Source: Ignavibacteria bacterium (GTDB taxonomy: Bacteria > Bacteroidota > Ignavibacteria > Kapaibacteriales > UBA4661). Taken from it: a stretch of DNA of 34,590 bases. The DNA lies in the NCBI GenBank assembly GCA_014654705.1, contig JACVZY010000073.1, positions 1 to 34,590 on the forward strand, given 5' to 3'. This document shows positions 10,383-24,346 of this stretch, one piece after another. Position numbers and translations under genes: made by a program. Below the pieces are notes generated by a model. It was not told the DNA's origin. It searched no databases and was given only the letters and a program-made list of their open reading frames with translations. Position 1 is the stretch's first letter, and each line of letters starts with the position of its first letter.

Positions 10383-12440
10383 ATGAATACTTCCCTCGCT
10401 TTTGTGGGCTGCCCCCGATGTAGCCGTTTCTTTCGACAAGCAATGCGGCACGTCTTGGTGGCAGTAATCATGATGCTGTCTTGCGAAATTACCGCAGCAC
10501 GGGGAAACTATACACAGATACAATCGGCAGCGCAGGCAGACTCCTTACAACGGCTTTTAGCAGGAGTGCTGCCCGATACTCTTCGTGTGGAGATATTGAA
10601 TCATCTTTCGCGGTACCATTGGCGAATACGGTCGAATTTGGACTCTGCATTTTTATACGCCGACAGCGCAAAACGTCTTGCTTCGAGCGTTGGATTTCTG
10701 CGAGGACAGGCTCAGGCTCTTATAAATATTGGCATAATTCATAATTTCTGGGGAAAGGATTCGGCGGCGGTGCAATATTATAGTGCCGCGTTGCCGTTCT
10801 ACGAGCGATTACAGGACACAGCGGGCATAGTGAAGGTCTATAATGCCTTGGGCGATAACTTTGGTTCGTTACAGCGTCAGTACGCCAAGGGCATGAAATA
10901 TCTGCTTATGGCAATTAAACTTTGCGAGGAGTCGCACGATACAATCGCGATTCATGCACCTCTTTCCAATATAGCCTACTTATATATTATGCACGGCGAC
11001 TACCCTAAAGCATTGGAGTATTTTGAGAAATCTCTCCGCTTCAATATCCAATTACGGGACAGTTTGGGCATCGCAATTTGCCTCGCAAATATAGGAAAGA
11101 TGTATTGCGCTCTCCACCGCGAAGATATTGCGGTACCATACTATGAACAAGCATTGCCTATTTTTGAACATATCGGTAACCAGCATCAGATTGCGTTGGT
11201 GTGTTTAGCATTGGGAAATATCCGCCTAACTCTGGGAGAACCTCAACAAGCAAGGATATATTTCAACCGAGCGGATCATTTAAGTGCAAAGCGGCAGGAT
11301 AATGTGTACCTCACTATCGCTTTGTGCTTAGCTTTTGCAAAGCTACACCTCTACAACAAGCATTTTGGCAATGCATTGGATTATGCACGTCGCGCACATA
11401 CCATTACACTGAAGTTACATAACACGCTGCTGGACCAGCAGGAAGCATTAGAGATTATGTCGCGGTGTTATGATTCATTAGGTCAGAGTGCAAAAGCCTT
11501 CCAATACTATCGTGCGGCTATGAATGTTCGTGATTCGATTCAGAATGAAATCTATATTCGACAGGCAAACGATATACGAGAACAGTACGAGTTTGAGAAA
11601 AAAAACAAAGAAATTGCGCTATTAAGTGTGGAAGCCGAACTCCGCACAACGGAATTGCAACGAAAGCGGACGGAATGGTGGCTTTTAGTGGTGAGTTTGC
11701 TGTTTTCTGTTGCGATTGCGACACGTGCGGTACAGCTCTATCGCGAGAAGAAAAAAGTTGCCGAAGATTTAACGACAAAAAATATATTTTTAGAGTACAA
11801 AACTCAGATTCAGGAAGTGGAATCGCAGCTTGCGCCACATTTTTTGTTTAACAGCCTTTCGGCGCTTGGGGGATTGATTGCGAGAAATGCGAAGGAAGAG
11901 GCAACGGAATTTCTCGAAAATTTGGCACTGACGTACCGATATGTTCTCACACACAAGCAGCAAAATTTGGTAACGCTGGAGGCAGAATTAGATTTTGTGC
12001 AGGCATATATGTATCTTTTTACGACACGGTTCAACGAGGGGTTACAAGTTCATATTGACATTGACCGTGCATTTATTCATCATTATCTTCCGCCGATGAC
12101 GCTGCAACTATTGGTGGAAAACGCGATTAAGCACAATATCGCAAGCACGTGGCAACCATTACGTCTGGTCATTCAAACGGAAAGGCAAAACGGCGCAATG
12201 AATTTGGTAGTACGCAACAATCTACAAGCCCGCACACCAAGTATGGGCTATAAGGCAATGATGAGTATGAGCAGAGAGTTTCGGCGAACTATGCAACACG
12301 AAGAATCAACGAACGTAGGCTTACACAATCTCGCTACACGCTACCGCATCCACGCACAGCGCCTACCGACCATTGAACAAACGGAGACAGAGTTTATCGT
12401 TACCGTACCGCTATTGGCAGAAGAAGAAATTGTCATGTGA
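10383..12440 (+). CDS. TPR-containing LytS-type sensor histidine kinase
   Basis: About 685 residues. A signal-anchor or signal peptide lies near residues 20-40 (VLVAVIMMLSCEITAARG). Six or so TPR units follow (about 60-390; for example YPKALEYFEKSLRFNIQLRD), then a coiled coil and one membrane helix near 433-455 (WWLLVVSLLFSVAIATRAV). The kinase is of the His_kinase type: PHFLFNSLSALGGLI with the phosphoacceptor His near residue 484, and LLVENAIKHN as the N box near 575. The G box region (NVGLHNLATRY) is present but short, as usual in this class. The TPR part would be outside the membrane and sense a protein or peptide. The natural partner is the LytTR regulator at 7090. Start: ATG 10383; one codon upstream a TTG is also in frame. 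Confidence 0.93.
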   Translation: MNTSLAFVGCPRCSRFFRQAMRHVLVAVIMMLSCEITAARGNYTQIQSAAQADSLQRLLAGVLPDTLRVEILNHLSRYHWRIRSNLDSAFLYADSAKRLASSVGFLRGQAQALINIGIIHNFWGKDSAAVQYYSAALPFYERLQDTAGIVKVYNALGDNFGSLQRQYAKGMKYLLMAIKLCEESHDTIAIHAPLSNIAYLYIMHGDYPKALEYFEKSLRFNIQLRDSLGIAICLANIGKMYCALHREDIAVPYYEQALPIFEHIGNQHQIALVCLALGNIRLTLGEPQQARIYFNRADHLSAKRQDNVYLTIALCLAFAKLHLYNKHFGNALDYARRAHTITLKLHNTLLDQQEALEIMSRCYDSLGQSAKAFQYYRAAMNVRDSIQNEIYIRQANDIREQYEFEKKNKEIALLSVEAELRTTELQRKRTEWWLLVVSLLFSVAIATRAVQLYREKKKVAEDLTTKNIFLEYKTQIQEVESQLAPHFLFNSLSALGGLIARNAKEEATEFLENLALTYRYVLTHKQQNLVTLEAELDFVQAYMYLFTTRFNEGLQVHIDIDRAFIHHYLPPMTLQLLVENAIKHNIASTWQPLRLVIQTERQNGAMNLVVRNNLQARTPSMGYKAMMSMSREFRRTMQHEESTNVGLHNLATRYRIHAQRLPTIEQTETEFIVTVPLLAEEEIVM

Positions 12441-12523
12441 GCGTGATGTTCTGCTTCGTCGGTGCGCAAACTGCGGGTGCGGCTGCTCCGCTCGTTGTGG
12501 GCGCTATTTTCCAAGTCGGTGGA

Positions 12524-12540
12524 ATTGGCATTATGCCAAT
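12524..12540. repeat. 17-bp perfect palindrome (possible parS, operator or element end)
   Basis: ATTGGCAT-T-ATGCCAAT is perfectly symmetric around one T. It lies between the kinase stop (12440) and the convergent parB stop (12617), where no gene is supported. It shares the centre style (ATTAT) with the palindrome at 14383-14395 on the other side of parAB. That makes it a candidate centromere-like ParB site, or a site at the left end of the plasmid-like block. It is not followed by a T-run, so it is a poor intrinsic terminator. Confidence 0.6.
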
Positions 12541-12616
12541 AGGCGCACAAAAAACATTTTCATCCACCAGTACCGATATTTATCGCATTCCCGTTTTACC
12601 ATGGATTGCTATTAGT

Positions 12617-13399
12617 TTAGGTGGAATGTTTTAATTTTTTTGCCGACTTCTTTGTTTGTAGTACAGTCCGCAAAAGTGCTAAGACTTCTTCTTGTTCTTC
12701 CTGGCTCGCGCGATTTAGTTCTTGCAAAAGTTTTTGTGCTGTACTCATAACAGTTGATAATTTCTTTGAATCCGTAAACGTTACATTGTAACGATTATTT
12801 TTTTTGCCCGCTATTCCCTCCGCTATTGCATCTCGTGTGCGCTTCACCTGAACCTTCACGGCGCTCACAGATTGCCCTGTTTCTCGTGCGACTTGCTCTA
12901 ATGTTAAGCTTGTATCATTTTTACTTTTGCGCCCGGCTTGTGGTAAAACATCAGGATTTAAGAAACGCTCTTCAAAATCAGGATACAACGTTTTATACAA
13001 ACGAATTTTTTGCTCATTGCTTAGTTGCCGCCGAATTAAATTATCCTTCACCAAGAATCCACGCTCTTCTTCATAGGAAAGGTCTTCCAAAACATACTGT
13101 ACGGGAACGGTTTCATAACCAAGGGTTTTTGCTACCCGAAGACGATTATGCCCAGCCAATAACGTTCCATCTTCTTTTGCAATGAGCGGCACAATAATAC
13201 CCCGCTCTTCAATATCTTTTTTTAGCTGCTCAAAATACTCAGCAGTCTCCTCAATAAAATATTTTTTATTAAGCGCGTTATCTTTAAGCGAATATACGGA
13301 AACACGTTCAATGTCTGAAGTTTTTATACCCTTCAAACGGTCTGCACTTTTGGAAGCGATTGAACTAACGCTTTTCAGGAAAGAGCCTGTTTTAGCCAT
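12617..13399 (-). CDS. parB: ParB-family partition protein
   Basis: About 260 residues from ATG 13399. An N-terminal ParB/Sulfiredoxin-like domain (about 40-140) contains the conserved signature GHNRLRVAKTLG within IAKEDGTLLAGHNR, and a second block DLSYEEERGFLVKDNLIRRQ. A helix-turn-helix region follows (LTLEQVARETGQSVSAVKVQ), then a Lys-rich C-terminus. It would bind a centromere-like site and activate ParA. The start overlaps the parA stop by 8 bp (ATGGCTAA), showing translational coupling. The frame also extends to a TTG at 13426, but the ATG fits the overlap better. Being coupled to ParA and beside a Toprim-helicase gene points to a plasmid-type rather than chromosomal Par system, by inference. 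Confidence 0.9.
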   Translation of the reverse strand: MAKTGSFLKSVSSIASKSADRLKGIKTSDIERVSVYSLKDNALNKKYFIEETAEYFEQLKKDIEERGIIVPLIAKEDGTLLAGHNRLRVAKTLGYETVPVQYVLEDLSYEEERGFLVKDNLIRRQLSNEQKIRLYKTLYPDFEERFLNPDVLPQAGRKSKNDTSLTLEQVARETGQSVSAVKVQVKRTRDAIAEGIAGKKNNRYNVTFTDSKKLSTVMSTAQKLLQELNRASQEEQEEVLALLRTVLQTKKSAKKLKHST

Positions 13400-14216
13400 T
13401 GTGTGTACTCTCCTTTTCGTTCTCAATTTTTTCTCTTTTTAGTATTTCATCAACAAGTGCAGAATAATCCCAAGCCCCTTGTTTGTTTGGCGCATATTGA
13501 AAAATATCTTTATCACTGGCAGTTGCTTCTTTCAATGTAACCGTATCGCGTATGCGAGTGTGAAAAACGACATTAGGAAATTTCTCCTCAAGATACATTA
13601 CGCAATCCTTTGCAATGGCAACCTTCGGTTTGAAAAGTGTGATAATAACTCCGGTAATACGCAGACGCGAGTTTACACGCTTGGATATTATTTGGTCAAT
13701 TCGGTTTATGATTGAATCTAAGCCCTGCAATGAAAGTGGCTCGGCAATAACAGGAATATACACCTCGGTTGCTACCGCTAGAGCATTAGTAACACGAGTA
13801 TCCATTGCAGGAGGGCAATCAATGAATATATAATCATATTGGTCTTTAATTTCTTCCAATGCGTGTTTCAACCGAAATTCACGCATATCCCAATTCGCGG
13901 CGGCGGCTTGTGCTTCGACTGTATTCAAAGACTCCGCACCCGGCACTAAAGAAACACCATTGGTACATTTAATCATGACATCTTTGATGGATTTTGTTTC
14001 GCAAAGCACTTCATACAGGCTTTTCTTGCCGTCTTTGGGAAAACCAAAACAAGTTGTCAAATTTGCTTGACCATCAGCATCAATAAGCAATACTCGTTTT
14101 CCCCTCCTTGCAAGACCAGCCCCGATATTTAAGACTGATGTAGTCTTGGCTACACCACCTTTATTGTTTACAACGGCAATAATTTTTGCCTCTTTTGTTG
14201 CTGCTTTTGTAGGCAT
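13392..14216 (-). CDS. parA: ParA-family partition ATPase
   Basis: 274 residues. The deviant Walker A motif KGGVAKTTS sits at about residues 18-26, followed by LLIDADGQANLT (motif A') and DYIFIDCPPAMDT (Walker B). This is the standard ParA/Soj layout. There is no long N-terminal HTH extension, so it is of the short type (like Soj or type Ib). It moves DNA cargo over the nucleoid together with ParB. It is the first gene of the parAB pair. The 170 bp upstream carry a nested inverted repeat (14360-14410) that could be its operator or the centromere. Confidence 0.95.
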   Translation of the reverse strand: MPTKAATKEAKIIAVVNNKGGVAKTTSVLNIGAGLARRGKRVLLIDADGQANLTTCFGFPKDGKKSLYEVLCETKSIKDVMIKCTNGVSLVPGAESLNTVEAQAAAANWDMREFRLKHALEEIKDQYDYIFIDCPPAMDTRVTNALAVATEVYIPVIAEPLSLQGLDSIINRIDQIISKRVNSRLRITGVIITLFKPKVAIAKDCVMYLEEKFPNVVFHTRIRDTVTLKEATASDKDIFQYAPNKQGAWDYSALVDEILKREKIENEKESTHNG

Positions 14217-14359
14217 ACTGTATCAGAAATAGTGAAAATATATAGTAGTTGAGTTCTAACGTATCGTTGTATGGAGTCTCCCCACAGCATAGACAAACTC
14301 TTGTTCATCATGTATTGCAGGGCAAAATTACATCTTTTTTCATCGTCATTTGTGCAAAT

Positions 14360-14410
14360 TTTGTGCAGGAAGTTCGTAGTAAGAGTATTATACTCCACTT
14401 CCTGCACAAA
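14360..14410. repeat. Nested inverted repeat (cruciform-like) upstream of parA
   Basis: TTTGTGCAGGAAGT at 14360-14373 pairs perfectly with ACTTCCTGCACAAA at 14397-14410. The 23-base loop holds a second perfect palindrome GAGTAT-T-ATACTC (14383-14395). The TTTGTGCA motif also occurs once more just to the left, at 14350-14357. The site overlaps the last codons of the Toprim-helicase gene (stop 14388) and lies about 150 bp before parA. It may be a terminator for the helicase gene, a ParB site or a replication/recombination site. Confidence 0.75.
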
Positions 14411-17400
14411 TGTCTTCGTAGTGCAATACTCGTCGTTCCTCAGCTTCATCATACAACCGTGCTTCGTTCTTCGCTCGTTCCATAAATTGTGCTGTGTACC
14501 TCACGCCATCCACACCGTATTCGCTTACAAATTCCGCCAGCGTCTTGCGTTTTAGTTCTTTGCCGTCGTTGTCAAACGTATAATGCCCGCTAAAGCGCGT
14601 GCCGTTCTCAGTTTTCACGCGTTCCCGCACATACCGCACGTGGAACAGTGCGTCCGTAAGTTCGCCTGCCCTCTGCTGCGTCAAACGGAACATGAACCCC
14701 GTGTAGGCGTTCGCACGGTCGGCAATTTCTTTCTTGGTGCGAATGGCGTTCGGGATGTGCCGTTGTGTACCGTCTGCGTTCGTGAGGGCGCAGCCGATTT
14801 CTGCCGTGCTCGTTATCAAACGGCGTATTTCTTCTTCCCGCCGCAGTTTTTCGCGGTCGTGTTTGCTGAGGATGCTGTCGGTCAGACCTGCGAGGCTAAT
14901 CGCCTCGCGCTGCTTTATTGCCAAACGCTCGGTGAACGAAGCCCACTTACGCGGGTCTTTGTTCGTGCGGACAAGATGGAGTGCTTCCGTATGGTCAAAG
15001 CCCAGGGTGCGGGCTTCGGAGTAATAGCGCACAAGAGTTTCGGTGCGTTGTTCGCGGAGAAGGGCAGCAAAATTCGTGAGAATGGCTGTGGTCTCCGGGT
15101 GTTGTTTCATAAAGGGAAGCAAACTTTCGGGACAAATGGTTGGTAACGTGTCCTTGAGTGCTTTGGAACGAGAAAGGGTGTTTAGTGCCGCAAGGAAGTA
15201 GGCGGTCTTGTGTTCGAGCAAGTTCAAAACCGTTTCTTCGTTGTGGAGTGTCTCCCGCTTTTCTTCCTCGCGGACTTCTTTAACAATCTCAGGAGAAAGA
15301 AGTCCGCCGGGCTTCGATATGGGTTCATCCACGATGCGCACAAAGCCATATCCTTCCAGCGCTTTGGCAACATCGTCCGGTGTTTTCATCGTCAGTCGGA
15401 GGGTGTGAATACGGTACATAATCGCACATTCATCGGTTGACCAGCGATTGTTGTTGGTGTTAAAGTGCAGCATCGTGTCCTGAAGGCGTGATGTGCTTTT
15501 GCGTCCCACGCCGCAGTCGGCGGTGTGATTGCGTCCGTGGGCAGCATTGAACGCCTCGGCAACCATCTCGGCGGATAAAAGCGTTTGCAGAAAATGATGC
15601 TGTTCGTTGAAGAGTGGTACTTGATTATTGGTTGCGTGCTTGCGTGGTATTTGCTTGCTTGTTCCTTGGGTTTTGGAAGAGAAGAGCATGACATCAATGG
15701 CATCCGCCTTGCGAAAACGGTTTGCCACCTGAATAATCGTGTCCTCGTTTTTTTCATCGAGCATGAGGATTTGTACTCGTCCCGTGTTGAGGATATTCAC
15801 GCCACAATCCAGAACACTGGTCGTCAGAATCACGCGGCGTGTGAAGCGGCTTTGTTCGGTTGCCGAGCGGTATTCGGGCGAGGTGTCCATCGTGTCGCGG
15901 GTAACAATATCCACGTCGTTGTCGGCAATGCCAGACTTCAGGAGCAGTATTTTGGTGCGCTTGAGCAGTTTTTTGCTGTTGACGTTGAGGAGAATCGTGG
16001 TTGAAGGATGTTCATTGAGCGTGGTGAGAATCGTGTCAATCACGGTTTCCTCACGTTTGTCGTAGGCGCATTGCTGAAAGCGGAGCGGTCGTTTTTGTTG
16101 CACGTCCACATCGCAGTAGGTAAAATTGAGCGGCGCTTCATGGAAGAGAAGTTCGGGTGTCGCACTGAGGCACAGTGTTCGGTGTGCTTGTTTGATAAGG
16201 CGGAGCATGGTGCGCATAGCAGGGGTGCGATAATCGTAATCGCAAACGAGCTTGTGCATTTCGTCCACCACGAGAAGTGTCGTCGGTTCGCTAATCACAT
16301 CCAGAAGCCGCGCTGCAGAATCATAAACGCTGACGATAACGCAGGTGTCTAAGGGCGCATCGGCATACAGACGGTGAAGGTCGCTTTCGTTACCGGTGAT
16401 GACGATGGGCTTCAAGTCGCTGTATTCATTCTTGATTTGTTCTGCCATCGCCACGGTCGGCACGGCAAGGACGGTGACACCACCTGTTTTTCGGTGATGT
16501 TCAGGTGCAATGTGGCGTAAGACGGTATAGGTTTTCCCGCATCCGGTTGGAGCGCGAAGAACGAGGCGGGAAGCGGATTCCAAAAGGTTCGTGAGAGCTT
16601 TGAGCGCGGGCTTCTCGTCGGAGAGTTTGCAGTGAACAGAAAGCTGCCACGCAGGAATAGCATATCCGTTATCAGCATCGCCGGATTTGGAGAGCGTGAT
16701 GCAACGGAGCGGAGCAGGGGAGAGGAGCGCGTTTTTCAGTTCGGTATCAAAGCCGTATGTGCAGACGTAATCAGCAAGGTCATTGAGTGCGGGCTTGGGA
16801 GCGTCCTTTGTTTCTTGGCGCTGTAAGCGGGGGAGTGTACAAATGCAATGGTGAATAGAAGCGCCATGCTGAGAAAGAGCGTTATGCTGAACAATCCCCC
16901 GTTCCCCCTTTGACAAGGGGGCGAAGACAGTGCTGTTACTCAGCGAAGTGCTCAGTTTTTGTGCGGCATTGATACCCGCAAAGTCGGTATCAAAAACCAC
17001 ATTCACACTATTACCATTTTCCTGCAAGCGCTTCACAATGCTTGGCAACAAGCGGTGCTGCACACCGCCCAGCGTAAAAGCGTTATAGCCTTTTGCCAAG
17101 AGTATCAAACAATCCTTTATTCCCTCGACGATGTACGCAGATTCATTCGGTCTGAGTTCGTTCAGTCCCAGCGCAAACTTGACTTCGGCGGTATAGTCGT
17201 TCAGCTTCAGGTGAAAGTTTTTGGAGCGGTGGGGAAAAGGCGAGTGTGTTTCTGCGCTAAAGTAGCAATAGCCGTAGTAATTCCCATCCGCGCTTGGCAC
17301 AACGAGTGTGAATCGTGCTTCGTGTGTCCCGCCGTAGAATGTGCCTTTGGCAGACACGCCTTCATCGGTGTAGGAGCGCAAAGCGCGTATGCCGAAACGC

Positions 17401-17897
17401 TCCAAAAGTTCGCGTGTGATAAATCCGCCGGAAATCCGTGCAAGTGTTTCCAGTTCAACGGAAGTAAAGTTGGCGAGTTCAAGTGCGGTAACACGGTAGC
17501 GCTTGGTTGCTTGGTTATTTGTTACTTGTCGTTTGGTTCTTGATTCTGTAACCGTTCTTCTTTCGGCTTTATATGTATGACCACTTTCGCTTTCATCCTT
17601 CAGTTCTATTGCATAGAGCTGTGCGGCATAACGGATTTGAGCTTCAAAGGTGGTATAACCGAACCCGTGCAAAAGGGCAGTAAACGTACCGCCGTCACCG
17701 GATGCGAAGTCTTTGAAACAGACTTCACCTTTAGGATTGCGATAAATAGAGAAGTTTTTCTTGCGGGCATCTGTGCGGAACGGGGAAACGGTGCGTTCAC
17801 CAACGGTAAAGCCGAAGTCATGGAAGATGCGGGAACCGCCGTCGGCGGTGAGGATGCTGCGGTAGGCAGCAGTGAACGAGAGAGAAGCGCCAGTCAT
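14388..17897 (-). CDS. Primase/Toprim-SF2 helicase fusion, probable replication protein
   Basis: About 1169 residues from ATG 17897 (the frame stays open to a GTG at 17945). Residues about 20-100 resemble the N-terminal zone of plasmid and phage primases (SPFRTDARKKNFSIYRN, FKDFASGDGG) but lack a CHC2 cysteine set. A Toprim domain follows: YIVEGIKDCL near 255 and VVFDTDFAGINAA near 300, with its acidic residues intact. Then comes an SF2 helicase: Walker A APTGCGKT near 448, Walker B DEMH near 543, SATPE near 576 and motif VI QVANRFRKAD near 721. The last about 400 residues are helical, charged and unrecognised. The helicase motifs recall the origin-binding (UL9-like) group. It probably opens the origin and primes replication of the element. 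A REP-like palindrome is inserted in frame at 16904-16921. Confidence 0.88.
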   Translation of the reverse strand: MTGASLSFTAAYRSILTADGGSRIFHDFGFTVGERTVSPFRTDARKKNFSIYRNPKGEVCFKDFASGDGGTFTALLHGFGYTTFEAQIRYAAQLYAIELKDESESGHTYKAERRTVTESRTKRQVTNNQATKRYRVTALELANFTSVELETLARISGGFITRELLERFGIRALRSYTDEGVSAKGTFYGGTHEARFTLVVPSADGNYYGYCYFSAETHSPFPHRSKNFHLKLNDYTAEVKFALGLNELRPNESAYIVEGIKDCLILLAKGYNAFTLGGVQHRLLPSIVKRLQENGNSVNVVFDTDFAGINAAQKLSTSLSNSTVFAPLSKGERGIVQHNALSQHGASIHHCICTLPRLQRQETKDAPKPALNDLADYVCTYGFDTELKNALLSPAPLRCITLSKSGDADNGYAIPAWQLSVHCKLSDEKPALKALTNLLESASRLVLRAPTGCGKTYTVLRHIAPEHHRKTGGVTVLAVPTVAMAEQIKNEYSDLKPIVITGNESDLHRLYADAPLDTCVIVSVYDSAARLLDVISEPTTLLVVDEMHKLVCDYDYRTPAMRTMLRLIKQAHRTLCLSATPELLFHEAPLNFTYCDVDVQQKRPLRFQQCAYDKREETVIDTILTTLNEHPSTTILLNVNSKKLLKRTKILLLKSGIADNDVDIVTRDTMDTSPEYRSATEQSRFTRRVILTTSVLDCGVNILNTGRVQILMLDEKNEDTIIQVANRFRKADAIDVMLFSSKTQGTSKQIPRKHATNNQVPLFNEQHHFLQTLLSAEMVAEAFNAAHGRNHTADCGVGRKSTSRLQDTMLHFNTNNNRWSTDECAIMYRIHTLRLTMKTPDDVAKALEGYGFVRIVDEPISKPGGLLSPEIVKEVREEEKRETLHNEETVLNLLEHKTAYFLAALNTLSRSKALKDTLPTICPESLLPFMKQHPETTAILTNFAALLREQRTETLVRYYSEARTLGFDHTEALHLVRTNKDPRKWASFTERLAIKQREAISLAGLTDSILSKHDREKLRREEEIRRLITSTAEIGCALTNADGTQRHIPNAIRTKKEIADRANAYTGFMFRLTQQRAGELTDALFHVRYVRERVKTENGTRFSGHYTFDNDGKELKRKTLAEFVSEYGVDGVRYTAQFMERAKNEARLYDEAEERRVLHYEDICAGSGV
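16904..16921. repeat. GC-rich palindrome inserted in frame in the helicase gene
   Basis: CCCCCTT-TGAC-AAGGGGG forms a 7-bp stem. On the coding strand it reads APLSKGERG, followed by a low-complexity His/Gln/Cys stretch up to about LPRLQRQ. The segment lies between the Toprim and helicase domains, where an insertion would be tolerated. It looks like a dispersed palindromic element that has become part of a protein linker. Confidence 0.55.
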
Positions 17898-17946
17898 GGA
17901 GAAGGAAGTAGGGCGCGTACAAAGAGGACAAAGCGAGGGACACACA

Positions 17947-17972
17947 ATAGATTGAGTTTTTACTCAATCTAT
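17947..17972. promoter_or_regulatory. 11-bp stem palindrome at the 5' end of the helicase gene
   Basis: ATAGATTGAGT and ACTCAATCTAT flank a TTTT loop, giving a perfect 11-bp stem. It is 50 bp upstream of the ATG at 17897 and just 2 bp before the alternative GTG at 17945. It could be an operator for autoregulation or a leader hairpin in the mRNA. The near-zero distance to the GTG favours the downstream ATG as the true start. Confidence 0.5.
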
Positions 17973-18061
17973 GTTCATATTTCGCACATTAAATTCAATC
18001 CGTTAAGTGCTTTTTTATGAACATTTTATGCAGCATTCTCTCACAGAAAGCATGAGAGTCG

Positions 18062-18093
18062 TTTGCTGTAATATAACATTTATGCTATATTTG
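18062..18093 (+). promoter_or_regulatory. Bacteroidota-type promoter for a small RNA
   Basis: TTTG at 18062-18065 and TATATTTG at 18086-18093 are separated by exactly 20 bases. This is a full match to the -33 TTTG / -7 TAnnTTTG promoter known in Bacteroidota. Transcription would begin near 18098-18101 and run rightwards. Confidence 0.6.
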
Positions 18094-18098
18094 TGTCA

Positions 18099-18220
18099 TC
18101 CGCCGTTCCACGACGCGTGTGAAAAATTTCTTTCTGCTCGAGTCCGATCAAAAACTTTGCAGAAAGCTGACTTAGAAGATTCCTGAAAAAGCCACGTTTC
18201 GTCGCGTGGCTTTTTCGTTT
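18099..18220 (+). ncRNA. Probable small RNA of about 120 nt
   Basis: The stretch begins about 6 bases after the promoter above and ends with the strong terminator at 18185-18216. Within it CTTTCTGC pairs with GCAGAAAG (8-bp stem, 21-base loop) ahead of the terminator. No protein frame in this direction fits. It lies between the divergent replication fusion gene and the DUF2887 gene, a usual place for antisense or regulatory RNAs of plasmids, although it does not overlap the helicase coding region. It could instead be the leader of the 18297 gene ended by attenuation. The family is not recognised. Confidence 0.5.
18185..18216 (+). terminator. Strong intrinsic terminator, probably bidirectional
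   Basis: GAAAAAGCCACG pairs with CGTGGCTTTTTC around an 8-base loop (TTTCGTCG): a 12-bp stem with A-run and T-run on its sides, followed by further T-rich sequence. It separates the small RNA from the DUF2887 gene, which starts at 18297. Confidence 0.85.
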
Positions 18221-18296
18221 TCTTATTTTCTGTTGGCAAGATAGCATTTTTTTTTCGGCAAACAAACATGGAATTTTCCCCATTCCTTTTTTACCT

Positions 18297-19121
18297 ATGC
18301 GTACAGATGCTTTATATTTGAACCTCTTTGAGACCGCTCCGTCGTTGGCATTACGATTATCGGGCTGTGGTACGGAACGTGCAAACGAGTACACGTGTGC
18401 CTCGTCAGAACTCAAGAAAGCATTTCGTGTGGATGTCGTTCTCACACCGCCGTCAGCAGATTTACCACTGGTGTTGGCAGAAGTCCAGTTTCAACGGGAG
18501 CCGGACATTTATCACCGTTTGGTAGCATCGGGCGCGATAGCTCGGATTCAATCGCCGGAGTACCCGGATGTGCGGATGGTTATTCTTTTTGCTTCCCGTG
18601 CTGTAGATACAGGAGCCGGAGCATGGCAGCCGCTTGTGGAGGCAGGGACGCTGCGCGTGGTGTATTTGGATGAAGCGACGGCAGAGTTAATGAATGCGGA
18701 ATTTACACCGGAGGAACAATCGGCATTGCTCTTAGCACGATTGACCGTTAGTCCCAGCGACCGTACGGGTGATGATGTTATTGTCCATCATCTTGGCATA
18801 GCTATTCATGCAATGCAAATGCGGAGTTTGCAAACGTTTTTCCGTGATTTATTTGTAAATTTGTACGTCAGTAAATACAAAACCCTCAGTATCAAGGAGA
18901 TACGCGCCATGATAGACACACGAGAAATCTTTGACGATATAGGTGAGAGCCTCGCAGTACAAGAGTATGCACAAGAAGTAGCAGAAAAAGCGGTAACAAA
19001 TGCCGTAGCTCAAGCAAAATTGGAAAGCGCACTTGCCATGCTGGCAGCAGGCATACCGATAGAGAAGGTTGCCTCTATTTTGCATCTGTCCGTCGAACAG
19101 ATCATAGCAGCACGATCGTAA
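18297..19121 (+). CDS. DUF2887-type PD-(D/E)XK nuclease-like protein
   Basis: 274 residues. The first half fits the DUF2887/Rpn-like group: start RTDALYLNLFETAPSLALRL, the ELKKAFRVDVVL block with a probable catalytic Asp, then LVLAEVQFQREPDIYHRL with the E-x-Q version of the E-x-K motif, and VRMVILFASRAVD. The C-terminal part (about 190-274) is helical and ends in a short HTH-like segment (GIPIEKVASILHLSVEQI). Relatives are often present in many copies and are linked to transposition or recombination, but their reaction is mostly untested. It follows a terminator and is separated by about 365 bp from the next gene, so it is probably transcribed alone. It may be cargo of the plasmid-like block. 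Start ATG 18297. Confidence 0.85.
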   Translation: MRTDALYLNLFETAPSLALRLSGCGTERANEYTCASSELKKAFRVDVVLTPPSADLPLVLAEVQFQREPDIYHRLVASGAIARIQSPEYPDVRMVILFASRAVDTGAGAWQPLVEAGTLRVVYLDEATAELMNAEFTPEEQSALLLARLTVSPSDRTGDDVIVHHLGIAIHAMQMRSLQTFFRDLFVNLYVSKYKTLSIKEIRAMIDTREIFDDIGESLAVQEYAQEVAEKAVTNAVAQAKLESALAMLAAGIPIEKVASILHLSVEQIIAARS

Positions 19122-19485
19122 GGTTGTGTGTGCCGACTGCTTTTGTGCTCGGTTCGCTCTGGTGTTATTGCATTGTGCAATCACAGCAATACACCTTTTC
19201 TGCTGATTATTTTCTTGTGTGCCCTTCTTTCGGCGTTTGTTTTTTTTCGGCAATACGGTATATTAGTACGCCTTTTGGCTCGTAGCCTTGTGCATTCGTG
19301 TTCGTGCCCTTGTTCATGTCATGTCCATCGTTCGAGTCCTGCTGTTGTGTGATTGTCGTTTCCTCCGGCACTCACTTCCCTTTTCTTATCCCGTGTCCAA
19401 AACATTCCCCCCATCACTATTTGTATCCGTGAGGGTTGTTTTATACCCTTCCTTTTTTCTTCCCACCCCTTTTTTTTGTTGTTCT
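19122..19485. other. Pyrimidine-rich intergenic region
   Basis: About 365 bases, strikingly T/C-rich on the plus strand towards the right end. It holds a short hairpin (ATTGCA-TTG-TGCAAT, 19167-19181) just after the DUF2887 gene. The frame of the next gene is open through the last 200 bases but has no coding character. I see no tRNA or clear promoter. Confidence 0.5.
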
Positions 19486-20649
19486 ATGGCATCCATCAAT
19501 TATTGTCGTTCGTGCGGAGTTGACATCAGTTCTCACCGTTCTGATTCCTTGTATTGTGGAGAAAAATGCTCCAAACGCTATCGTCGTCTTGTACAAAAAG
19601 GACTGGCACGTCCGGCACGTGTGCAGCAATTTCAGCACGGTTTACATGACCGCCACCGCCCGGCGCATCATCGTAGTCCGGACAAGGTCGGACAAGTCCG
19701 GACTATGAAGCGTAGCAAAGGCGATAAACTCTCCGATGCTCTGATTCAGACCAGTGTCAAAACCGCTGGGAATATCATCCAAACCACTGCCGTTGGGTTG
19801 CTGAACAAGCACCTCGGTATCACTCCCGTACAACCAATACCAACTCATCAGGGGCAGCATCAAGGGCAACGATTGTTATCGGATGGAGCATCGGCATCGT
19901 CGTCTCCAGACAAACAGGTTTTCTCCCCTACAAGAGTTCCTCTCGTCATTCGGAGTGGTGAAGAACTTGCGGCGCGTCCGGCATTTAACCGATTGAACTT
20001 GCCGGAGGAGTGGTCACAGTTTTTGGGCGATATTCCCCTCCCACCGTTTACGATGTTGGTCTGGGGGATGAATGGCAGTGGTAAATCGTCATGGAGTATG
20101 CGCTTTTTACGGGTGATTGATGAGTATGCGTATCGTACACCAGCCTCGGTGTATTGTTCGGCAGAAGAAGATGTGGACGGGGTAACGGTGCAGCATCGTC
20201 AGCAGCTTACGGGTCTTACGACAAGCCGCTTTATTAACCGCTTGCCAGTAAATTCCAAGGAGTGGAAGCAGGTGTTATGGGATAGCTACCAGAAAGAGGA
20301 CAACCCACAGTGGTATTATCGGAACGTTCTGGTTCTGGACTCGATGAGCGTGTTGGAGATCACTCCGCAGTATTTTGGAGATGAGTATGATCGTCGTCGT
20401 CAGCGTGGTTTGCCAGAGGAAAAACTCTTTGTATGGGATTATTTGGCACATCATTCAGGGCGTATCTATATCGCTCATGCGACAAAAGACGGTCGGGAAT
20501 ATATTGGCGCATCGGATTGGGCGCATGATGTTGATATCGTGATAGAGTGTGTCAAAAGTTCCGGTCGTGGGCAAGCGATCATCCGCAAAAACCGCTTTAT
20601 CGCTGCGGATGGTCGTGGAAGTATAGGCTCAACGATGAACATTTGGTAA
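19486..20649 (+). CDS. RadA/Sms-like RecA-fold ATPase with N-terminal zinc ribbon
   Basis: 387 residues from ATG 19486 (a longer open frame to 19288 is non-coding in character). Residues 6-30 form a zinc ribbon: CRSCG near the start and YCGEKCSKRY later. A disordered linker of about 120 residues, rich in Ser, Gln, His and Pro, follows. The ATPase has Walker A WGMNGSGKS near residue 195 and Walker B NVLVLDSMS near 282. Late motifs IYIAHATKDG and IIRKNRF near 367 match the order of RadA, where KNRFG is a hallmark. RadA itself has a four-Cys finger and a C-terminal Lon-like domain; the latter is absent here. The likely role is recombination or DnaB-like helicase work for the element. Its spacing from neighbours suggests its own promoter. 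Confidence 0.8.
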   Translation: MASINYCRSCGVDISSHRSDSLYCGEKCSKRYRRLVQKGLARPARVQQFQHGLHDRHRPAHHRSPDKVGQVRTMKRSKGDKLSDALIQTSVKTAGNIIQTTAVGLLNKHLGITPVQPIPTHQGQHQGQRLLSDGASASSSPDKQVFSPTRVPLVIRSGEELAARPAFNRLNLPEEWSQFLGDIPLPPFTMLVWGMNGSGKSSWSMRFLRVIDEYAYRTPASVYCSAEEDVDGVTVQHRQQLTGLTTSRFINRLPVNSKEWKQVLWDSYQKEDNPQWYYRNVLVLDSMSVLEITPQYFGDEYDRRRQRGLPEEKLFVWDYLAHHSGRIYIAHATKDGREYIGASDWAHDVDIVIECVKSSGRGQAIIRKNRFIAADGRGSIGSTMNIW

Positions 20650-20856
20650 GAATGGCAGGGAAAAGGGAGTCAAAAGGCGGTATTGTGGTCATTAATATTC
20701 CTCGTATCGCCATGATGCGCTTGATTTTGTCCATATTCACCTCAAAATGACGATATTGTCCAAAAAGCACCATTATTGTAAAAAAATGCTTCAAAAATCG
20801 TAATTTGTCCACTAATGTCAAAAAACGTCATTAAAGTTCTTAATTATCGGTAAAAA
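20650..20856. other. AT-rich non-coding region with TTGTCCA repeats, possible origin or operator
   Basis: About 207 bases without a gene. TTGTCCA occurs three times on the plus strand (20727, 20756, 20805), with weaker forms (TTGTAAA 20776, ATGTCAA 20816). AATGACG at 20746 is inverted as CGTCATT at 20826. The right half is very AT-rich. It lies directly before the HTH gene at 20857. These are features of an operator region or replication origin; the repeats are too irregular in spacing to call iterons. Confidence 0.45.
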
Positions 20857-21294
20857 GTGAGCGTCGGTATGGATAAAAGGATACACAGTCGTGAGCTTCG
20901 GTGGATATTGAAGCGAACGGGATACAAACAAGTGGAATTTGCGGAGCACATAGACCGTTCTCGGCAATTTGTGAGTGCGTTGTGCTGCAATGGAGAAGCA
21001 ATACCGCTCCGATATGTGGAACAATTGATACAACTAGTCGGCGGTGAACAATATCTTCTTGCCCAAGCGGAGTATCGGACAGCGGAGCGGAAGCGGAACA
21101 AAACGATGGTTGAAGGCTGGTTATCCTACGCTGCGCGGACAGAGAGTCTGCCACCAAACGCTGAGAACAAACTTCATATCGACACTTATATGTTGGACAC
21201 GATTGAGCAATATCGTGCGAAGCAGTTTGGCGAGATTGGTGCTCAGCAGCAGCAAGCGGCAACAGCCTTTCTGGCAAAACACGGACGGGGGTAA
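20857..21294 (+). CDS. Helix-turn-helix DNA-binding protein
   Basis: 145 residues from GTG 20857 (ATG at 20869 is equally possible). An XRE-like HTH is visible at about residues 14-70: ELRWILKRTGYKQVEFAEHI, then the recognition region DRSRQFVSALCCNG, ending in YVEQLIQLVGGEQYLLAQAE. The same ending pattern appears twice in the protein at 22192-22686, so they share a domain. The second half is helical and Gln/Ala-rich without a known fold. The stop lies 5 bp before the serine recombinase ATG, so the two are co-transcribed. It probably binds the repeats at 20727-20832 and regulates this small operon, by inference. Confidence 0.75.
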   Translation: MSVGMDKRIHSRELRWILKRTGYKQVEFAEHIDRSRQFVSALCCNGEAIPLRYVEQLIQLVGGEQYLLAQAEYRTAERKRNKTMVEGWLSYAARTESLPPNAENKLHIDTYMLDTIEQYRAKQFGEIGAQQQQAATAFLAKHGRG

Positions 21295-21299
21295 GAACA

Positions 21300-22004
21300 A
21301 TGGAACATTCACAGCACCATCAGTATATCGCTTACTACCGAGTTTCGACCGCAAAACAAGGCGCGTCGGGCTTAGGCTTGGAAGCACAGCGCCATGCGGT
21401 TCATCACTTTGTACGCGGCGGCGTAATTTGTGGGGAATATACCGAAGTGGAGAGCGGCAAAAACAACACCCGTGTTGCCTTGGACAAAGCAATAACTCAT
21501 GCAAAAGAGAGGGGAGCACGATTAGTGATTGCCAAACTTGACCGTCTGAGCCGTAATGTCGCGTTTATCTTTGCGCTCAGGGATTCGGGGGTGGATTTTG
21601 TGTGCGCGGATATGCCGGACGCGAACACGCTGACGATTGGGATATTTGCAGCGATGGCACAACATGAGCGGGAGCTTATTTCCCAACGGACAAAGGCGGC
21701 ATTGCAGGCAAAGAAGCAGCAAGGCTATGTTCTGGGCACACCCCGCAATCTGACGCAGGAAGCCCGTGTGCAGGGAGCACGACAAGTTGCAGCATTAGCC
21801 CGCGCAAGTGAGCACAATAAGCGGATATGTGCGGTAATCCAGAACCTTCACGCACAAGCAATGCCGATAGCGCGGATAGCGGATTTTCTAAACAAGAGTG
21901 GTTTTCGTACCATTCGAGGGAAGCAGTTTCATGGCTCAACGGTGCGTTACTTGCTGCAATTACATCATTCATCACGTGTACAGGCACAAAAAAGCCATGA
22001 ATGA
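21300..22004 (+). CDS. Small serine recombinase (resolvase/invertase family)
   Basis: 234 residues. The catalytic domain begins YIAYYRVSTAKQGASGLGLE, with the nucleophile Ser near residue 15. Further blocks are LVIAKLDRLSRN, which has the conserved Arg residues, and IFAAMAQHERELISQRTKAAL, the long E helix. A C-terminal HTH region follows (AMPIARIADFLNKSGFRTIRG, split by a few residues). The size fits resolvases and invertases, not large integrases of phage type. It could resolve multimers of the element, or integrate it. Overlapping the end of the gene is the 13-base word ACAAAAAAGCCAT (21986-21998), which recurs at the right junction of the block (22742-22754). Co-transcribed with the HTH gene upstream. 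Confidence 0.93.
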   Translation: MEHSQHHQYIAYYRVSTAKQGASGLGLEAQRHAVHHFVRGGVICGEYTEVESGKNNTRVALDKAITHAKERGARLVIAKLDRLSRNVAFIFALRDSGVDFVCADMPDANTLTIGIFAAMAQHERELISQRTKAALQAKKQQGYVLGTPRNLTQEARVQGARQVAALARASEHNKRICAVIQNLHAQAMPIARIADFLNKSGFRTIRGKQFHGSTVRYLLQLHHSSRVQAQKSHE

Positions 22005-22056
22005 ACTGTACTGTGCAGCTCTTAAACCAGTAGTTGTAGGGCTATTTTCCATGAGT

Positions 22057-22088
22057 TTTGGATAATTTTCCTAAAAAAGGCAGATTTG
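22057..22088 (+). promoter_or_regulatory. Promoter of the double-HTH gene
   Basis: TTTG at 22057-22060 and CAGATTTG at 22081-22088 are 20 bases apart; the second differs from TAnnTTTG at one position. The start would fall near 22094, inside the small palindrome GTGGCATACCAC (22093-22104), and the iterons would be transcribed as leader. Confidence 0.45.
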
Positions 22089-22110
22089 TCAAGTGGCATA
22101 CCACATTAAC

Positions 22111-22190
22111 AACGTGAATGCCCTCATAAAAAACGTGTATGCCAAAAAATAAACGTGAATGCCCTCACTAAAAACATGAATGCCCTCATT
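22111..22190. repeat. Four iterons, period 20-21 bp
   Basis: The unit AACGTGAATGCCCTCA begins at 22111 and 22152; a variant AACATGAATGCCCTCA begins at 22173 and a shorter one (AACGTGTATGCC) at 22132. Steps are 21, 20 and 21 bp, two helical turns, so a protein would bind all copies on one face. An inverted GGCATAC, matching GTATGCC, sits at 22095-22101. The array ends right at the start of the double-HTH gene. It is typical of iteron origins and of autoregulated operators. Spacers of only 4-8 bases rule out CRISPR. Confidence 0.85.
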
Positions 22191-22191
22191 T

Positions 22192-22686
22192 ATGAAGCAA
22201 AATCAAACAGAAATACCGCATATTGATCCACTTCGCTATAGCGCATTGAAGGATTTTTGTACAATCATTGGCATTGAAGTGAGGGACGTGGCTCCTCATA
22301 TGGGTTATACAAAGGAATCGTTGTACAATGCGCGTTACCACCGGCGCACGGGAGCAGGCTCGTATATTGAGTTTTCCCGTTTAGATGGCATTATCGCTTA
22401 TGTTGGCGAGGAAGATTATAGAATCGCCTTGGCAGAGCTGCGCATGACAAAGGAGGAACGAGAAAATCCACGCAATACGCAACGCATCACATGGGATGAG
22501 GGTAAAAAGGTATTGAAACTTTGTGGAGTGACTATAGCGGAGTTTGCGTATGCCATTCTTCTGACCCCATCGCACCTGATGGGTTGGTACCGCAGGCGGC
22601 TGATACCGCTTCGGGATATACGGGCATTGAAAAATTTGGTTGGGGCAAAGAACTTCGAGACGGCATTGAGGATGGTGAGGACATAG
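22192..22686 (+). CDS. Protein with two tandem HTH-like domains, possible initiator or regulator
   Basis: 164 residues from ATG 22192; the ATG at 22180 lies inside the last iteron and is less likely. The protein consists of two similar halves. Half one runs from LKDFCTIIGIEVRDVAPHM to IIAYVGEEDYRIALAELR. Half two runs from GKKVLKLCGVTIAEFAYAIL to ALKNLVGAKNFETALRMVR. Both match the HTH module of the protein at 20857. A two-module protein directly behind iterons suits a Rep-like initiator or a repressor that binds them, but it is shorter than the usual iteron Rep proteins (about 230-400 aa) and I see no Rep_3 motif. Function by position is inference only. It is the last gene before the right junction of the block. 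Confidence 0.65.
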   Translation: MKQNQTEIPHIDPLRYSALKDFCTIIGIEVRDVAPHMGYTKESLYNARYHRRTGAGSYIEFSRLDGIIAYVGEEDYRIALAELRMTKEERENPRNTQRITWDEGKKVLKLCGVTIAEFAYAILLTPSHLMGWYRRRLIPLRDIRALKNLVGAKNFETALRMVRT

Positions 22687-22927
22687 AGTGTTGTTGGTTA
22701 GGCTTGCAGGCTGCACCAGAGAATTCATCGGAAGTTGTGCTACAAAAAAGCCATAAACGACCGTTTGTGACTTTTGCGCCTGCTTCACCATCAATTTCTT
22801 TTAGTTTTTCCCAACCTTGTTTGTATCTGTCTGGATGTTCCATTTTTGTTTTTTCGTTATTTTTCTGTCCGTAGCAAAATTGCCCGAAAAGAAAGAGTAA
22901 AATTATGTTTAATGTCGTTATTTTCAT
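22532..22927 (-). pseudogene. Truncated exported carboxymuconolactone-decarboxylase-like gene
   Basis: Residues 1-21 are a signal peptide (ILLFLFGQFCYGQ). Residues about 27-53 (MEHPDRYKQGWEKLKEIDG and a few more) match the N-terminus of small CMD/AhpD-like proteins. Homology stops after AGAKV at about 22769; relatives go on for another 80 or more residues including the catalytic Cys pair. What follows here (Ser/Pro-rich, antisense to the double-HTH gene) is foreign, so the real remnant is 22769-22927. The remaining half is nowhere in the window. The break marks the right end of the plasmid-like block, or a deletion beside it. Confidence 0.7.
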
Positions 22928-23032
22928 TTATGCACAGTGTTTGTTTACAATGACCGCTAACTACAAATTTTGTGTGGCTCTTGCATTGGATCGTATTAGC
23001 CTTATTTCCCAATGTTTTACAATGCATTTAGC

Positions 23033-24346
23033 TCATCCTTTTTGATGTGACCTCCTCACTAAAAAACATGATGTCGCCGCTAAAAAAAAACATATACCCG
23101 CTAGAAACAAGGCATTACGGGCATCGCCGCCCAGAAGTGAATCGTAGTACAACGGCACAGTTACCATACTGATAATCTGCGGCACGACAATAAACATATT
23201 GAAAATACCCATGTACACGCCGACGCGCTCCGCCGGAACAGCATCGGCAAGCATGACGTAGGGCATAGCCATAATTGAAGCCCACGCAACGCCAACCGCA
23301 CACATACAGCCCATTACCACATAGACATTCGTTGTGAAAAGCATCCCGATAAAACCCAAACCGCCAATACATAGGCAGACTGCGTGCGCACCACGATTGG
23401 TAAGGAATTTTGCTAGGGGTGGCAAAGCCATCGATGCAACGAAACATAAGGCACTAAAGACCGCCAAGCCAAGGTTTCCCCATTTTACACCTTCATCAAA
23501 GCCGGGGCTGTGTGCGTCCATAGCGCCGAAGCAGTGCCGTGCAATAGATAGTGCCAGATATTGCCACATGAGCGGCAGCCCGTACCACGTGAAAAATTTC
23601 ACCCACCAAAGTTCGCGCATCACAAGCGGCATTTCTCGAAAAGCATGAAGTAATTCGCGTAAAACTCCTTGAATACCTGCTCCAAAGCCACCTTGATGCT
23701 TTCTGTGAAATTCTTCGATGTCCTCCGGTGGATATTCGTCGGTAGTGAAGATTGTCCAGCCTACGGTGAAGAGTATTGCTGCTGCACCGACTAAAAAGGA
23801 ATAGCGCACAAAAGCAGGAATGGTTTCACTGTGTGATTGTACCATCGAGATTCCCAACAACGGAAAAACAAATGGCATCAAATTTGCCAAAGTTTGCCCG
23901 AAACCGACAAAAAAACTCTGTACCGCAAAGCCTGTCGGCAGCTGCTCTTCAGGGAGTTTATCGGCGATAAAGGCGCGGAACGGTTCCATCGTTACGTTTG
24001 CAGCACCATCCAAAAGCCACATCAACGAGGCTGCTATCCAGAGTGCCGACGAATACGGCATTAACACAAGCGCGAGGCTGGTGAAAATTGCTCCTACCAA
24101 AAAATATGGTCGCCGCCGCCCTAACTTCACAGTCCATGTTCTGTCGCTCATTGCACCGATAATTGGTTGCAGAATCAAGCCCGTGAGCGGTCCGGCAAGC
24201 CAGAGAATCGGAATTTTTGCTTCATCCGCCCCCAAATACCGATAAATCGGACTCATGTTCGCTTGCTGCAAACCAAAGGCATATTGTACACCCAGAAAAC
24301 CGAAACTCATGTTCCAGATTTGCCAAAAGGTTAAGCGAGATTTCAT
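23033..24346 (-). CDS. SLC45/MFS-type sugar transporter
   Basis: About 437 residues from ATG 24346 (a TTG at 24358 adds four). Twelve hydrophobic helices fit a major facilitator. The first loop carries SDRTWTVKLGRRRPYFLVGA, the MFS loop 2-3 signature, as in SLC45-type sucrose and maltose carriers; GLQQANMSPIYRYLGAD before it is typical of the bacterial members. It would import a disaccharide or its hydrolysis product with protons across the inner membrane. It is the last gene after the kinase (gap 47 bp) and the GH100-like glycosidase, on the same strand, which supports a sugar role. It could also carry a monosaccharide; substrate not decidable here. Confidence 0.88.
   Translation of the reverse strand: MKSRLTFWQIWNMSFGFLGVQYAFGLQQANMSPIYRYLGADEAKIPILWLAGPLTGLILQPIIGAMSDRTWTVKLGRRRPYFLVGAIFTSLALVLMPYSSALWIAASLMWLLDGAANVTMEPFRAFIADKLPEEQLPTGFAVQSFFVGFGQTLANLMPFVFPLLGISMVQSHSETIPAFVRYSFLVGAAAILFTVGWTIFTTDEYPPEDIEEFHRKHQGGFGAGIQGVLRELLHAFREMPLVMRELWWVKFFTWYGLPLMWQYLALSIARHCFGAMDAHSPGFDEGVKWGNLGLAVFSALCFVASMALPPLAKFLTNRGAHAVCLCIGGLGFIGMLFTTNVYVVMGCMCAVGVAWASIMAMPYVMLADAVPAERVGVYMGIFNMFIVVPQIISMVTVPLYYDSLLGGDARNALFLAGICFFLAATSCFLVRRSHQKG

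Follow-up and report, generated by a model that had tools for sequence, protein, structure and literature searches.

A plasmid-type block with a primase–helicase gene and an upstream hairpin RNA unit in Kapaibacteria, compared with its sister copies and known replicons

The primase–helicase CyRepA1 is the replication protein (Rep) of the cyanobacterial plasmid pSYSA, with sense and antisense RNAs immediately upstream of it (PMC9978351, PMC10899382); its domains have also been described (PMC10079941). Other points of comparison are the Toprim protein of plasmd3 from Bernardetia sp. ABR2-2B (NZ_CP147023), the small serine recombinases of Cytophagales plasmids (Hymenobacter, Spirosoma, Adhaeribacter) and iteron plasmids that carry a Rep3 initiator. 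Here we analyse a window of 34,590 bases, the whole of contig C73 (JACVZY010000073.1) in a 5.72-Mb, 118-contig genome of an Ignavibacteria bacterium, in which a block with a plasmid-type backbone encodes a ParAB partition pair, a primase–helicase (PrimHel), a P-loop ATPase and a small serine recombinase (SR), every frame being open (Table 1). On balance we think it probable that this block serves replication, partition and recombination as the core of a plasmid family carried by Kapaibacteria, with PrimHel as its Rep and a counter-transcribed RNA (ctRNA) beside it. What is new here is the promoter–hairpin–terminator RNA unit that lies upstream of PrimHel in all four copies of the locus.

These copies reside on C73 and on contigs C9, C48 and C115 of the same genome, where their co-residence with C73 is by assembly only, and in each the spacer upstream of PrimHel carries a promoter, a hairpin RNA of about 125 nt and a strong terminator, all reading away from the gene. 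The promoter, TTTG-N19/20-TATATTTG, which we take to be of the Bacteroidota type, matches perfectly in the four copies against an expectation of 0.01–0.02 per dinucleotide shuffle, and the RNA that follows has fold z-scores of −3.6 to −5.0, terminator included, with none of 200 shuffles as good in any copy. Conservation among C73, C9 and C48 is elevated between about 18046 and 18270, with low values on both sides, the loop AGTCCGATCAAAAACTTT is common to C73 and C48, and 4 of the 25 predicted RNA pairs have changed on both sides in an automatic four-copy alignment. The C115 unit, which accompanies a PrimHel that is 41% identical, has a stem of other letters. A small structured RNA with its own promoter and terminator beside rep is one mark of a ctRNA replicon, and this arrangement can be read in all four copies. 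We infer that the hairpin RNA is a counter-transcribed RNA that limits Rep synthesis. Rfam returned nothing at gathering score within 12000–23500, blastn found no such unit in known plasmids, and in a search of 50 loci with an RNA model just the four known copies stood out, the next matches having E-values of 0.2 or worse.

PrimHel resembles CyRepA1 in joining a primase-like and a helicase domain in one protein, and the RNA unit upstream of it recalls the antisense RNA layout of pSYSA. It differs in having a Toprim_2 domain, with no match at E 0.1 to the N-terminal DUF3854 domain of that family, and in that the RNA of the PrimHel loci is a short hairpin unit without a shown coding partner. PrimHel may work like CyRepA1; by the curated model it is no member of that family. 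Comparison with C9 and C48 makes the ATG at 17897 the probable conserved start of PrimHel. A PDB search matched helicases, and PADLOC gave partial helicase or Toprim matches (best PbeA, 1.9e-11). The nearest named relative that we found on a complete plasmid is the Bernardetia protein, which is homologous to the Toprim–helicase region of PrimHel (hhalign 99.3%, E 2.5e-20, 432 columns) and is encoded on a circular 12.9-kb molecule; this plasmid differs in that its annotation table names no ParAB or recombinase and in that Pfam sees no helicase in the Toprim protein. Among 61 genomes searched, matches at E ≤0.001 occur in four, including its own (with its four loci) and relative G009, which belongs to the same family, the latter being the one convincing case among 60 relatives, and the gene is absent from the seven other genomes of the same genus; two marginal candidates, G011 and G019 (about E 0.001, 25–26% identity), were not counted. 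As a separate observation, a 33-base dispersed repeat (window 16893–16925) lies in frame in the PrimHel linker, where it reads PLSKGERG, and at least 24 further places in the genome carry it (40 of 65 candidates scored). In G009, an N-terminal PrimHel fragment sits between frames that by eye resemble transposases (contig G009:C349, L034:10079–10663), on a contig that also has a Rep3–ParAB–SR set.

The sister copies share PrimHel, and those on C73, C9 and C48 differ in their partition genes. C9 holds the block from PrimHel to SR with a different ParAB, C48 combines PrimHel with a third ParAB, C115 has PrimHel at 41% and SR at 63% identity, and relative G001, which is without PrimHel, has the ATPase at 82% (84% in C9) and SR at 89%. 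In pairwise comparison of C73, C9 and C48, PrimHel is 86% identical in every pair, ParA 25, 36 and 32%, and ParB 34, 38 and 39%, from which we conclude that the partition cassette has been swapped. The dN/dS ratios (PrimHel 0.16–0.19, SR 0.08–0.11, ATPase up to 0.38) indicate that PrimHel and SR are under purifying selection. Synonymous distances between C73 and C9 are 0.22 for the DUF2887 gene, 0.27 for the ATPase, 0.47 for PrimHel, 0.50 for SR and 0.56 for the helix-turn-helix (HTH) gene HTH1, and the SR distance to another species, 0.56–0.59, is near the C73–C9 values of PrimHel, SR and HTH1. The sister copies thus appear to have diverged separately for a long time while constrained, and to have exchanged parts afterwards.

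SR fits the small serine resolvases and invertases in its catalytic domain and in its size, within about 180–240 aa, and it also matches a PHROG integrase family (4.6e-24). Relatives occur in 2273 plasmid records from many phyla, five of them at 60% identity or more, and the best 15 of these 2273 matches are from Bacteroidota plasmids (55–61% identity over 90–97% of SR), the taxonomic placement of some matching records being our assumption. Given this spread, SR by itself is no pointer to integration. The Cytophagales plasmid SRs, alike to that of C73 at 55–61% identity among the 15 listed, have an annotated replication initiator nearby in three of five stretches and a named PrimHel-like gene in none of the five; on pHsw2 the SR relative is 1.7 kb from the replication initiator and 3.6 kb from ParA. 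Rep3 iteron plasmids (C113 and C99 of the same genome, and G009:C349) likewise join ParAB to an SR of the same family, 55–58% identical to that of C73, but there a Rep3 initiator replaces PrimHel, whereas Pfam found no Rep3 initiator in the C73 block, and circularity is argued for C113 only.

The sequence-only reading of this DNA had proposed to look for such gene sets as circular contigs. C113 (16.4 kb; SR, ParAB, Rep3 and an ATPase with a partial 31–34% match) has both ends within one 21-bp array next to Rep3, an array present on no other contig, and the simplest reading is a circular plasmid that was opened within its iterons; it is probably circular, but has Rep3 in place of PrimHel. C48 (46.9 kb) shows a 51-base exact end overlap across which a frame of 202 aa runs unbroken, and other contig ends that we compared share 51–53 bases, like assembler overlaps. 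C9 was considered as a free circle and rejected: it has no end overlap and is a fragment, since its left end also occurs on C99 and C89 and its right end on C44. In 39 chosen frames of C48, C113, C99, C115 and G001:C389, from which the longest frames were left out, Pfam matched 33 families, and the 25 of them that were listed include defence and toxin–antitoxin families and no conjugation family. Several further observations concern these contigs. The frame at 4160–19843 of C48 (L113, L024) encodes 5227 aa, by eye a surface protein, with 70% DNA similarity to a 2310-aa frame on G001:C389; frames that by eye resemble secreted proteins end beside ParB in C48, G009:C308 and G009:C232; and a CBASS-like pair of a SMODS synthetase and a SLATT_4 effector lies at L113:218–1940 on the possible plasmid C48. 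On contig C28, two relatives of the C48 end gene (L032 near 41.6 kb and L126 near 12.3 kb; 84–87% over about 1.1 kb) are perhaps further mobile elements.

We propose that PrimHel, as Rep, would open the plasmid and prime it, in or close to the PrimHel leader, by means of a Toprim-type primase and an SF2 helicase, and that the hairpin RNA of about 125 nt would pair with the PrimHel leader, reducing Rep synthesis and so limiting copy number. ParAB would segregate the copies, being exchanged between replicons with near-identical Rep, and SR would most likely resolve multimers. In C73 this core is now surrounded by other DNA, and on the right it adjoins a broken decarboxylase-like gene, the join falling in the middle of the hairpin that follows SR; a capture in the chromosome would have used this hairpin dyad. 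A bolder version, which we put forward as rather unlikely, is that these loci form an undescribed Kapaibacteria replicon family in which a Toprim–SF2 fusion is both primase and initiator, checked by a ctRNA whose stem varies between lineages, that replicons in which Rep is near-identical coexist in one host by exchanging whole ParAB cassettes, and that one of them, with an RNA loop equal to that of a resident replicon, entered the chromosome through the action of its recombinase.

Several results weigh against reading the block as a plasmid core with an RNA-controlled Rep. The cut-off of the CyRepA1 model (NF042913) is not reached, PrimHel scoring 22.3 bits, over residues 462–769 only, where 200 are needed, and its relatives in known plasmids are few, weak and partial (40 of 72,556 records: 37 Clostridioides, 2 Bernardetia, 1 Pontibacter), none of the 40 covered to 80%. 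Structure predictions for the ATPase and PrimHel are too poor for searching (pLDDT 35.7 and 33.8). In the RNA unit, the terminator may supply much of the fold z-score; in the alignment as made, the central hairpin has 8 outer pairs, of which 4 hold in every row and 4 break in C115, where 1 of the 3 inner pairs breaks as well; and the C115 RNA alone folds to another, longer stem. In a ctRNA replicon the rep leader would be transcribed across the RNA on the opposite strand; a promoter-like site for such a leader is perfect in C48 and has one mismatch in C115, and up to one mismatch none occurs in C73 or C9. The uneven C73–C9 synonymous distances make the block a mosaic and not one unit of one age, and the C48 overlap lies in a gene whose C28 relatives include an identical stretch of 59 bases, which leaves the closure of C48 suggestive only. 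Composition, too, fails to separate C73 from the chromosome: its left flank and block fall at the 5–7th tetranucleotide percentile among chromosomal pieces and its right flank at the 15–20th, and pieces of C48, C113, C99, C115 and C9 spread from 0 to 62, in a comparison that did not exclude each chromosomal piece from the reference it was scored against.

Table 1. Features of the block and its right edge in the window (positions are those of contig C73).
Feature	Coordinates	Strand	Basis
ParB-like partition protein, 269 aa	12617..13426	-	Pfam ParB_N 7.9e-6; PHROG 4715 ParB-like 8.4e-18
ParA ATPase, 274 aa	13392..14216	-	Pfam AAA_31 1.9e-50; PHROG 164 ParA-like 1.6e-61
14-bp perfect inverted repeat around PrimHel stop codon	14360..14410		palindrome/repeat scan
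PrimHel, 1185 aa, Toprim (residues 271-339) and SF2 helicase (about 447-743)	14388..17945	-	Pfam, curated models
Hairpin RNA promoter TTTG-N20-TATATTTG	18062..18093	+	perfect match in 4/4 copies
RNA of about 125 nt, hairpin CUUUCUGC/GCAGAAAG with loop, then terminator hairpin (18185-18216)	18094..18222	+	fold, alignment
Conserved stretch, expected site of PrimHel leader promoter	18221..18270	-	promoter scan, conservation
Rpn/DUF2887 family protein, 274 aa	18297..19121	+	Pfam 6.8e-25; TIGR01784 2.3e-12, below its cut-off
P-loop ATPase, N-terminal Cys-rich segment (by eye); start probably about 19486	19288..20649	+	phrog_6891 1e-7
Short direct repeats upstream of HTH1	20672..20833		repeat scan
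HTH1, putative HTH protein, 145 aa	20857..21294	+	HTH_31 0.02; C9 homologue 84%
SR, small serine recombinase, 234 aa	21300..22004	+	Resolvase PF00239 1.8e-27; PHROG 125 DNA invertase 2.9e-34
Segment between two SR 3'-end copies (21967-22004, 22723-22760; 71% identical)	21967..22760	+	repeat family D2
Iteron-like 21-bp direct repeats, 4.1 units	22104..22189		repeat scan
HTH2, 168 aa, no family match	22180..22686	+	Pfam, PHROG, curated models
Right junction, dyad AAAAAAGCCATAAACG-AC-CGTTTGTGACTTTTGC, 12/16 arm positions match	22744..22777		dyad comparison
5' part of carboxymuconolactone-decarboxylase-like gene, cut at junction	22763..22927	-	plasmid search, alignment

The minus strand of the block encodes ParB, ParA and PrimHel, and the plus strand, in order, Rpn/DUF2887, the P-loop ATPase, HTH1, SR and HTH2, the 21-bp array coming after SR. 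Much of what the sequence-only reading had listed is borne out: ParAB (ParB_N being at its cut-off), the primase/Toprim–helicase fusion (Toprim_2 3.8e-6 and DEAD 3e-14 within one frame), the small serine recombinase, the iterons, and the palindromes, which lie at 14360/14397 and 17947–18216. Its statement that conjugation and virion genes are lacking agrees with scans of the eight block proteins against Pfam, PHROG and curated models, in which no such family was matched. The ‘RadA-like ATPase’ keeps its likeness to an ATPase family but not the name RadA, the best Pfam match (0.047) being to an unrelated family, and of the ‘two HTH proteins’ HTH1 is marginal (0.02 in Pfam, 0.004 in PHROG) and HTH2 is without a family match. 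That reading overlooked the Rpn/DUF2887 gene and the hairpin RNA unit (18062–18222). In known plasmids the ATPase has relatives in just two Persicobacter records (24–25%). The inverted repeat at the PrimHel stop is presumably a terminator, and the second SR 3′ end suggests either a later addition of the segment 22005–22722 or the survival of an earlier SR end. Elsewhere in the genome, contig C68 (L027:5244–6803) carries an array related to the iteron-like repeats and a broken HTH2 relative, with a 210-aa frame nearby that by eye resembles another serine recombinase.

The right edge of the block cuts a gene that resembles carboxymuconolactone decarboxylase, as had been claimed from the sequence alone, and keeps its first 55 residues, the break at 22763 falling at the dyad centre. 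In a search of plasmids, 7 of 11 weak hits to the remnant are annotated as this decarboxylase (best of the seven E 0.01), the overall best hit (4e-4) is without annotation, and in one annotated hit aligned by eye the similarity runs to the junction. Pfam found nothing in the 56-aa remnant, a PDB search of it gave nothing useful, no remainder of the broken gene was recognised on the left side of the block, and no convincing native gene was found in 30 relatives and the own genome (best E 0.032). The left arm of the dyad is the end of the hairpin that terminates SR, which is whole in C9 and altered in G001. The match of the gene-side arm, 12 of 16, is reached by 13 of 69,150 window positions, junction site included, and the arm motif, allowing at most one mismatch, occurs genome-wide twice on C73, once on C9 and nowhere else. 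The junction fits a crossover at the SR hairpin, but only a single event is seen, and the hairpin could be no more than a terminator.

The block may have been inserted in a chromosome or may belong to a larger plasmid. The earlier description as a plasmid-like replicon of uncommon type, integrated among ordinary chromosomal genes, stands as regards its plasmid-type, uncommon and patchy character and the ordinary look of the flanking kinds of gene. Integration itself is unproven: a search for an empty site with the major facilitator superfamily (MFS) gene, the sensor kinase, two DNA flanks and the decarboxylase remnant (in 12, 12, 9, 9 and 30 relatives, respectively, and the own genome) yielded none, and no flank was syntenic in four relative loci compared for gene order (L152, L153, L155, L156). 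It is quite possible, if less than probable, that all 34.6 kb of the contig come from a larger plasmid, with the block as its ordinary backbone and no chromosomal integration. The missing synteny would fit this, as would the flank DNA matches, which are scattered and single-gene among the matches listed, the MFS gene, a divergent paralogue (about 47%) of a gene on C89 that itself has 69–91% DNA matches in relatives, and the open state of all block genes, the five tested being under constraint; C48, if a plasmid, also has large cargo. Against a larger plasmid, the methyl-accepting chemotaxis protein (MCP) gene at 8029–10356 has relatives of 72–73% in G004 and G005, that of G004 on a 135-kb contig beside frames resembling (by eye) uvrD and surE, and for the frames judged by eye to be FecR-like and sigma-factor-like, relatives of about 50% lie on 141- and 144-kb contigs of G005 and G006; neither MCP locus keeps the gene order of C73, and at the FecR-like loci the shared order does not extend past the frames for the receptor and the FecR-like and sigma-like proteins. 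Also against it, the two ends of C73 have no exact overlap; no free circle was seen. We regard insertion of the block in a chromosome as somewhat better than even, with a larger plasmid as its main rival.

Two further explanations were weighed. A small integrative element, in which SR inserts site-specifically at dyad-like sequences and the plasmid-like genes serve a transient circular stage, would account for the junction at the dyad centre with its partly matching gene-side arm, for the like dyad after SR in C9 and G001, and for the confinement of the arm motif to C73 and C9. We nevertheless judge it improbable, as there is a single junction whose dyad could also be a bidirectional terminator, neither a left end to match it nor the rest of the broken gene was recognised at the left, SR is resolvase-sized, and by eye no such dyad lies within 200 bases after SR in C115, C113, C99 or G009:C349; the relaxase or conjugation genes expected of integrative and conjugative or mobilizable elements (ICE/IME) are also absent from the eight block proteins. 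Primase–helicase fusions occur in phage satellites and prophages, PrimHel weakly matches helicases of six Clostridioides phage records, and SR has its match to a PHROG integrase family, but no virion or packaging family is among the PHROG hits of the eight proteins and scans of IMG/VR confirmed no relative of PrimHel or the ATPase, so that we give very little credence to a phage satellite or prophage remnant. The suggestion that the family might be phase-switching finds no support, with no free C73 form seen: none of the 25 longest inverted pairs listed between 11.5 and 24 kb makes a good pair of arms at the block edges, and the longest (12783–12817/23798–23832) is 74% complementary and lies inside genes.

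A plasmid core with PrimHel as its Rep and the hairpin RNA as its control, which we favour, would bear on a group for whose plasmids a literature search of titles and abstracts found no paper. A first vector for Kapaibacteria could be tried with the candidate Rep, the compact control RNA and the partition cassette of the block, and the replicons with near-identical Rep but different ParAB form a natural set for studying plasmid incompatibility.

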